Under the pieces are notes generated by a model. That model was not told the origin of the DNA, did not search any database, and worked only from the letters and a program-made list of their open reading frames with translations. From contig JANVCC010000071.1 in assembly GCA_025345505.1 (NCBI GenBank), forward strand, positions 5,198,206-5,262,205: a stretch of 64,000 nt of DNA, read 5' to 3'. The DNA is from Todiramphus chloris collaris. Its lineage: Eukaryota > Chordata > Aves > Coraciiformes > Alcedinidae. The first letter of the stretch is position 1. Each line of letters starts with the position of its first letter. Below, piece after piece: positions 48,501-51,500 of this stretch. The translations under genes and the position numbers were made by a program.

Positions 48501-51500
48501 CCCCTCCCTCCTCCCCCTCCAAGGCGAGAAGGGATGAGGCTGAAGGCAACAGCTTCTTACTCTGCAGGCAGTCAGCATTGAGCAGGTCCTGGCACTTCTC
48601 GTGGCACTTGACACCGCACTCAGCGCAGCGCATGCCCTGCCGGGCGATGCCCCAGAGCAGCCCCTCACACTCATAGCAGTAGGTGGGGGTGGTGGCCGTC
48701 CACACCTCGAAGTTGTGAGGCGTCGTGCAGGAGATGGGGTACACTAAGGCTTGCAGGGTCTTCTTGTAAACATGGTTTTTCTGTGCAGGGGCAGAAGAGG
48801 GACGGGTGAGAAACGCTCCGGCGACTCAGAGCAGCCGAGCGAGGCTGCGGGGTGCAGACCCCCACCCACCGGGGCAGCCGTGGGTGCTCTGGCATCGCCG
48901 GAGGAGGATGCTGCTGTGGCACGTACCCTGCACCTCCTTTGCTGGCATGGCCTGCCGGAGCTCAGCCCTCCCACCGAGACCACCCCCACCCCCAGCCAAC
49001 CCCAGCACCTACCAGCTCCTCATTGTTCAAGGTGCTCGAGGCCAGCGCAGACGTGATTCCCGCTTTCCTGGACTGGACCAGGGACTGTGGGAAAGAAATG
49101 CCGTTCCCAGATCCAGCAGAGCGTGAGGTGGCCCTCCCGCACTCCTCTGGGGTTCCAGTGGCCATAAAACACTTGGGACGAGCCCTCACCCCAGGCTGGG
49201 GGGTGCTGCCAGCATGGGCAGGCAGTGGGGACAGCCCAGTTCCCAGTGATGCCAGCGCTGCAAAGGGCCACCCTGCTTTGCAGTGGGACTGGAACCAGTT
49301 CAACAGCCTTCAGCATTCCCAGTTCATCCCCAGCAGGGCAAAGCCTCTCTACGTGTGTCCGAGTCCCAGGGAAGACCAGGGTAGGGAGCACTTACCATTG
49401 CCTGCGGGCAGCCAGAGCCAGCGATGGGGGAACAAAAGGTTATTAGTGCAAGTCACCTCACAGCAGAGCCACCTCCTGGCCCCTTCCCTGCTGGACCGAG
49501 TGGGGATCGGGGCACCAACACCTCACCCAGCGCTGGGCCAGTCCCCGGGGGATTTCCTACCCCAAGACACAGCACTGGCTGCAGTTTGCCAAATCCCAGC
49601 AGGGAAAGGCAGCTGCCCTGCCCGACCCTCACCCTCTGCCCAGCCCACCAACACACACAAGCCACCCCCCCAGAACCCCGACACCGACACAGCACAGTGC
49701 AGAAGCATCAGCAGCCGCCCGAGCGGGCTGGGGGGTGGAGGGCACTGGAGTGAGGACAGCGATGGTGGGAGCAGGATGGGGACAGTGGGATGGGAGAGGG
49801 TAGGCAGGCTGGGCACAGGATGGAGGCACCCTGGGGAGGGCACAAAGTGGAGGCAGTGAGGTGTAAAGAGAGAGGGAAGGAGGCAAAGGGCACCTAATTC
49901 TGGGTGCAAAAGTTGTCTGGTTTCCAAAATTGGTCACCAGGGAGTGAGAGCAGAGTGCCCCCGGGGCTGGACAGGACCCCAGCATGGGGACTGGGCTGCG
50001 TCGATGCCATGTGACAATGGTGGGGACGGGAGCATAGGGTCTGTGCAGCTCAGGAAAGGCAGCGCTACCCCTCCTCTGGCACAAGGGTCCATCCGCCCGG
50101 CACCAGCACGGTGGGAGCTGTGGGGATCCTACGGCAGGTGGGACAGGAAGGGACTGGGGACGCAGCCCCGGTAGAAATGGGAAACCAGACGCAGCCCTGG
50201 GAAGCCCTGGGCTGATGCTTGGCGTGGGGAGCCCTGGAGCTCCGTTAAAGAGAAGCACCCTTGGGTGGGGAGAGCCCAGCCGTGCCATCCTCACAGCTCC
50301 CTGCTACGAGAGCCCCGAAACAGCCCGGGAAACCCTCACACCCCACCGGCAGGGCTGGAGGAGGCTGGGCAGGGCTGGCCAGCAGCACCCAAGGGTGCTC
50401 TCTCTTTAACCCCTCGGACCGCGCTCACCAGATCGCTGACTAGAGGGAGAGATTTGCGTCCAGGCTTAATGTCGGGCATGCTGTTAATGCAGCGCAGAAA
50501 CCTTACTGCCGCCCCCCTGCCGCCAGCGATGGCCAAGCCAGGCCGGAGGAAAGAAAACAGAAAACAAAAGCCATGTTAGAGGCAGCTGGGGAGCAGGGCA
50601 CGGGCGCCTGGCAAGCCCCGGGCGGGGCGGACGGGTGGCATTGTCCAGTGGGGCGCAGCGGGAGCGAAGCTGGTAGCTGTGTGGTGCAAGGCGTCGGGAG
50701 GAACCTCACCAAATCGCTAACTAGGGGGATGGGTTTTCGCTTGCGTATGTCCGGCATGCTGTCTATAATGATCAGCCCGCCACCAGGCCTGCAAGAGAGA
50801 CAAAAGTCAGCGGGGAAGGGGAAACTGAGGCAGGAAGGGCCCCCCTGCTATTGCCTCATGTTCATTTAGGACTTGGCGGACAGGGCTGCAGGGTAACTGC
50901 GCGGTGGCCTGGGACTCACCTGTAGGACCCCCGTCCCCACCACCACCCCAGCCAGGGAAGGGACCACTGGACGAAAAACTTTGGGGGGAAAGGGGATTCT
51001 GGAAGAAAATTCAATTTTTCCCCATGTGAAGGTGTTTTGGTTCAGTGATGTGGCAGTGAAGCACAGAATCACAGAATGGTAGGGGTTGGAATGGACCTCT
51101 AAAGATCATCGAGTCCAACCCCCCCACCAGAGCAGGATCGCCCAGAGTAAATCACACAAGAACGGATCCAGGCAGCTTTTGAAAGTCTCCAGAGAAAGAG
51201 ATTTCACCACCTCTCTGGGCAGCCTGTTCCAGGCTCTGTGAAGAAGTATTCCCCATGTTGAGGTTGAACCTCCTGTCTTCCAGTTCATGGCCATTACCCT
51301 TTGTCCTGTCACTGGACACTGCTGAGAAGAGCCTGGCCTCATCTTCCTGACACCCACCCTTTAGATATTTATCAGCACTGATAAGATCCCCCCTCAGCCT
51401 CCTCTTCTCCAAGCTAAACAGCCCCAGCTCTCTCAGCTTTCCTCGGATGGTAGGTGCTCCAGGCCCTTCATCATCTTAGTGGCCCCGGCGCTGGACCCTC

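Follow-up and report, generated by a model that had tools for sequence, protein, structure and literature searches.

A pair of homologous exons, probably mutually exclusive, between the calmodulin-binding site and the C1 domain of UNC13A in Todiramphus chloris collaris

Munc13-1, the protein encoded by UNC13A, sets vesicle priming and short-term plasticity, and a one-for-one swap of protein sequence between its calmodulin and diacylglycerol sensors would give neurons direct, genetically testable variation. In a 64,000-nt stretch of the Todiramphus chloris collaris genome (hereafter the window), two neighbouring exons with related peptides lie between the sequences for these two sensors, raising the question of whether they are alternatives of which each mRNA receives one. 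Worms achieve such tuning at exactly this site with a microexon. In motor neurons this 9-nt unc-13 exon of the calmodulin-to-C1 linker is fully included, and olfactory neurons skip it; both forms are required, regulated splicing alters synaptic output, and mouse and human are reported to have a 6-nt counterpart (passages of PMC12287369). Within the protein, helix H1 of this linker packs on MUN, the mutual inhibition of C1 and C2B depends on linkers, and deletion of the X-region enhances release (passages of PMC11991699). Given the worm microexon and these linker and X-region findings, a change in the UNC13A linker is likely to matter. Mis-splicing of UNC13A has also been linked to ALS and FTD (passages of PMC12558363).

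The identity of the gene was assessed by tblastn with a Munc13-1 query, which indicated that the minus strand of the window carries UNC13A (Munc13-1). The matched exons begin in the C2A domain at residue 18 (61052) and reach the C-terminus at 30216, keep the order from C2A to C2C and have high identity to the query. A search of the whole genome (1.17 Gb, 889 contigs) provided two paralogous loci, C643 and C20, which we take to be UNC13B and UNC13C, respectively. When compared with solved Munc13-1 (7t7c_A), the SLVQ and C1 exons together gave 201 bits for the window, 184 for C643 and 170 for C20; on the C1 exon alone, the window and C643 were indistinguishable, each having 97% identity. Judged by these scores, the window gene is UNC13A, being nearer to Munc13-1 than the two paralogous loci of the same genome are. 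An earlier sequence-only reading had placed the exon pair in UNC13A after the calmodulin helix and before the C1 domain, and the match to the Munc13-1 query and the PDB matches agree with this placement. The features of the region are collected in Table 1.

Table 1. Exons and neighbouring elements of the UNC13A linker region, in positions of the window
Feature	Position	Strand	Basis
Calmodulin-binding main-helix exon (21-residue peptide)	53996..54089	-	Match to Munc13-1; 3' boundary from donor score, 5' boundary the best-scoring AG; frame open in test model
Upstream exon, 16 residues plus two bases (GG), end of calmodulin-binding peptide	52214..52263	-	Munc13-1 match; weak 2kdu_B match, E 0.93
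Canonical exon of 79 nt (entry phase 2, exit phase 0), (G) plus 26 residues	50710..50788	-	26/26 residues as in Munc13-1
Intron within the pair, 193 nt	50517..50709	-	Branch-point-like CTCTAAC, U-rich tract, AG-free 69 nt
Extra exon of 88 nt, homologous to the canonical one (entry phase 2, exit phase 0), (G) plus 29 residues	50429..50516	-	Homology, frame, splice scores
Intronic hairpin	arms 50386-50410 and 50244-50267	-	24 base pairs, one bulged base
6-nt microexon GCAATG (Ala-Met), directly after the pair	49396..49401	-	Chosen among 4 possible 6-nt exons by protein fit
SLVQ exon, 24 residues, next after the microexon	49013..49084	-	Munc13-1 match, splice scores
C1-domain exon	48561..48780	-	Munc13-1 match; PDB matches 7t7c, 5ue8, 1y8f

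Both exons of the pair are preceded by AG and followed by GT, and each contributes one base, completing the codon opened by the upstream GG, before running through 26 (79 nt) or 29 (88 nt) codons to end on a full codon. The coordinates, lengths of 79 and 88 nt, 193-nt spacing and phases given by the sequence-only reading were reproduced from the sequence. The homology that it had claimed was likewise recovered: 14 of 19 aligned residues are identical, plus one inserted residue, and the local alignment scores 61. The intron of 1308 nt that separates the canonical exon from the microexon, simulated 1000 times by a first-order Markov model, gave no score above 43. Adjacent homologous coding sequence beyond chance, as looked for in mutually exclusive exons, is thus what we found. 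A third copy scoring at least 40 was not found in six frames of the 64-kb window. We take the 79-nt exon as canonical because all 26 of its residues are identical to the mammalian protein. By this comparison the 79-nt exon is the ordinary form, namely the canonical linker exon of Munc13-1, and the 88-nt exon is the member of the pair without a description and the point of difference from that protein. In the earlier view, of one canonical and one undescribed exon, the labels are reversed if its 'exon b' was the 79-nt exon.

The frame consequences were followed in a seven-exon test model consisting of the calmodulin exon, the upstream exon, the pair in four ways, the microexon, and the SLVQ, C1 and next exons, with several outer boundaries being best-scoring guesses. 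With either exon of the pair alone, the frame remained open to the end of the model, although openness of a frame alone means little in a GC-rich region such as this, where open frames abound. Inclusion of both exons led to a stop after 84 residues, inside the 88-nt exon, and inclusion of neither led to a stop after 68 residues, in the SLVQ exon, in line with the frame shift for both or neither that had been predicted. Skipping of the microexon kept the frame in both forms. Since the two stops precede further exon junctions, nonsense-mediated decay of these products is expected from general knowledge. With both lengths 1 mod 3, equal phases, and a frame broken by both or neither, the adjacent homologous exons are like the mutually exclusive homologous exons of vertebrates, and the pair probably belongs to the frame-enforced class. 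Our main reading, to which we give a probability of roughly 0.7, is that these are old tandem duplicate exons used one at a time, yielding two UNC13A proteins that would differ in a segment of 27 or 30 residues.

Consistent with an old duplication, 17 of 57 aligned bases differ within the pair (6, 2 and 9 at the three codon positions of the 19 aligned codons, one unmatched GGA codon being left out). By the Nei-Gojobori method, synonymous differences fall at 9 of 13.0 sites (pS 0.69) and pN is 0.18, for a pN/pS of 0.26; nineteen codons leave a wide error on any age estimate. When 17 random changes were simulated 20,000 times, at least 14 residues were kept in 0.045% of cases starting from the canonical exon and 0.06% starting from the extra exon, whereas at least nine third-position changes alone arise in 4% of random-mutation simulations. 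We identified six direct-repeat families of at least 14 nt in 49085-52263. Only one (D3, 16 nt) touches the pair, lying inside both exons, and another (D6) joins the flanking introns out of register. Homology within the pair thus does not extend beyond the exons, and the introns have diverged beyond what that repeat finder recognizes. Apparently, then, the duplication is old and both exons have been kept. The proposals that synonymous sites had diverged and that selection had retained an ancient duplicate are both supported by these values and by the few protein changes.

To place the duplication within the gene family, we compared the two paralogous loci in six 10-kb stretches, which covered both from the 79-nt exon to the C1 exon plus ~17 and 27 kb upstream. 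Both loci carry a canonical-type 79-nt exon (73% identity, E 1.4e-4 at C643; 58%, E 0.1 at C20). The extra-exon peptide scored 56 and 51 at these exons and no more than 35 elsewhere, so that no relative of the extra exon was seen in the 60 kb; the lack of a detectable copy there suggests that this exon is not general in the UNC13 family. Genome-wide, a search with the extra exon returned one match, itself, and is too insensitive to exclude relatives elsewhere because it missed the canonical twin too. Among the canonical exons of the three loci pS is 0.94 to 1.01, compared with 0.69 within the pair, and 14 residues of the extra exon are found again in its twin, compared with 12 and 10 in the paralogous exons. 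The lower pS and the greater number of residues in common with the twin fit a duplication within UNC13A after the paralogues had split, but shared base composition could be another cause of the lower pS.

We scored the splice sites with a simple matrix. The donors of the canonical and extra exons score 3.7 and 5.2 and the acceptors 8.4 and -0.1, the latter value being below the best acceptor candidate of each of the 30 tabulated exon hits. The branch point predicted for the extra exon by motif match (CTCTAAC) has its A at 50576, 60 nt upstream of the exon and 134 nt after the canonical donor; a U-rich tract follows the motif, and the last 69 nt before the exon contain no AG. Upstream of the canonical exon, CGCTGAC lies at 19 nt. 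An AG-free stretch of at least 69 nt occurs in 4 of the 16 acceptors examined, the extra exon included, and another exon has its sole branch motif at 68 nt, so a distant branch motif with a long AG-free stretch is uncommon but not unique here. Together with a hairpin downstream, the weak acceptor and distant likely branch point are as for a regulated minority exon, to judge by sequence features. Steric blocking as the cause of mutual exclusion was rejected as unlikely because of the 134 nt separating the predicted branch A from the canonical donor.

The weak acceptor can also be read as a sign that the 88-nt exon is an old duplicate in decay or rare use, now almost silent in this lineage after its splice signals weakened. 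This would fit the faster protein change of the extra exon relative to the paralogues (pN 0.26 and 0.31, versus 0.06 and 0.20 for the canonical exon). However, it would be surprising for an exon long out of use to retain an open frame, intact GT and AG, a good donor, a branch-like motif and a long AG-free stretch, and the protein changes are far fewer than 17 random substitutions predict. Decay of recent onset is compatible with that low figure, since it covers the whole time since duplication. Weighing these points, we regard decay as unlikely. Similarly improbable, and compatible with our main reading, is that the extra exon serves a special cell type (hair cell, retina, endocrine) rather than a switch in brain neurons; mutually exclusive exons are often tissue-specific, but UNC13A is mainly neuronal. 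Still less probable is a poison exon, included mainly beside the canonical exon to lower UNC13A by nonsense-mediated decay, as inclusion of both does create a stop within the extra exon and a branch point at 134 nt leaves room for splicing the two together, yet a poison exon has no need of a homologous peptide and the pN/pS of 0.26 favours a coding role.

Around the pair, a scan of 13 patterns in five segments of 193-200 nt was mostly null, and with 65 tests some excess is expected by chance. U-rich words of the ELAVL-like type occur twice between the two exons (0.16 expected), UAA-type words twice after the extra exon (0.16 expected) and once before the microexon (0.18 expected), where there is also one ACTAA. 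GGGG is found 7 times before the canonical exon, compared with 3.9 expected. PTBP words stayed below 1.8 times expectation in the five segments, and UGCAUG is present at 54013, 53757 and 48473, with none between the last two positions. The hairpin (50410-50386 with 50267-50244) starts 18 nt past the extra-exon donor, and its score of 21 is the highest of 638 windows of 300 nt. Two other windows score 20, a 60-nt local hairpin (53384-53443) and a palindrome (21798-21817). The 221-nt hairpin segment folds better than all 200 shuffles (z -3.1), and the 186-nt hairpin stretch has one full-length copy in the genome in a search that skips very common words. The stem persists in a 581-nt fold, whose total energy is ordinary (23 of 100 shuffles as good), and we therefore claim no structure across the pair. 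A repeat finder that allows no bulge did not report the hairpin, and Rfam gave four matches up to E 1, none reaching the gathering threshold. That the hairpin has a role in splicing is a guess from its position.

If each mRNA indeed receives one exon of the pair, the default would be the canonical exon, whose acceptor is strong, and the extra exon would be switched on in some neurons through its weak acceptor, the distant branch point and U-rich tract, and the hairpin; ELAVL- or PTBP-type proteins are our guesses for the factors acting on these elements. Wrong products would be removed by nonsense-mediated decay, which we favour over steric blocking as the enforcer because the 134-nt branch-point distance makes blocking unlikely.

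As for the protein, the swapped segment lies between the calmodulin-binding motif and the C1 domain. Its start directly follows KSLWFKG, with which the calmodulin-binding peptide of 2kdu_B ends, and it stops short of the C1 exon; the 2kdu_B match (E 0.93) rests more on identity of place than on statistics. Searching the PDB sequences with each linker peptide revealed no entry holding the swapped segment. Two chains appeared up to E 1, 2kdu_B (0.93) and DHT03 protein B (0.24), which was taken as a chance match, and the long Munc13-1 entries match the query only from residue 7 or 8, after the swap. Before the anchor tryptophan, the calmodulin peptide of the window (exon 52214-52263) has one residue more than the ARGEGEM-SKSLW of 2kdu_B. 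In the extra exon 11 residues replace PGGGLIIID, the charge (K+R minus D+E) goes from +1 to +3, and a serine in R-K-S is introduced, a possible kinase site. The switch in a basic cluster proposed by the sequence-only reading is only part of the change, as PGGGLIIID is also replaced and the R-K-S serine added. The extra form would have a more basic linker, VRFLRCIN near the calmodulin anchor tryptophan, and possibly a kinase target, and may thereby alter how calcium-calmodulin and the N-terminal region release the C1-C2B-MUN inhibition of vesicle priming. A bolder and rather doubtful extension is that the extra exon is an ancient Munc13-1 switch exon of vertebrates, overlooked in mammals, that swaps the calmodulin-to-C1 segment together with a kinase site under partial control of the hairpin, with neuron types setting their short-term plasticity by splicing.

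The worm unc-13 microexon is among the closest known systems, in that the corresponding linker of an orthologue is alternatively spliced there, with synaptic effects (passages of PMC12287369). In contrast to the 9-nt worm exon, which is included or skipped, a whole exon would be swapped in UNC13A here; the likely counterpart of the worm exon is the 6-nt Ala-Met exon downstream of the pair, at 49401-49396. All three loci of this genome have a downstream candidate for such an exon (GCAATG, GCCATG and GCTATG), chosen from 4 six-base candidates fitting the pattern in UNC13A and 1 each in UNC13B and UNC13C. In passages of PMC12287369, a 6-nt Unc13c microexon lies at the identical position and a 6-nt Unc13b exon is called apparently unrelated; given the counterparts at all three loci, this status may need a second look.

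We found no description of the UNC13A pair in the literature searched, which comprised titles and abstract starts, with most subscription journals and supplements outside its scope; automatic annotation of vertebrate genomes may well list both exons already. A term search of the main text found neither UNC13 nor Munc13 named in two catalogues of homologous or mutually exclusive exons (PMC5740500, PMC4465641). The peptide strings of the two exons had no match in literature text, which says little because papers seldom print sequence as text. The passages on UNC13A concern the TDP-43 cryptic exon, expression and microexons, and skipping of human UNC13A exon 38 on depolarisation is described in passages of PMC9065059. 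Looking for stray animal DNA, we also queried IMG/VR and GTDB contigs with the C1 exon, without useful result; the single GTDB locus, a 19-residue match in a Bacteroidales contig, was dropped.

Elsewhere in the gene, the intron upstream of the pair carries, at 51060-51560, a putative CR1-like repeat. The intron at 46484-46578, with boundaries set by splice-site scoring, matches human UNC13A intron 20-21 and is only 95 nt long, without UG repeats. It is too short for the TDP-43 cryptic exon, given the length of that exon. The human intron is the home of this cryptic exon (exon numbering inferred from primers in PMC12558363). Finally, a Munc13 insert located between MUN and C2C is matched weakly, over short lengths, at two places in 34206-39803 (near 35414 and 36477, with scores of 42 and 48), which may be a pair of small alternative exons.
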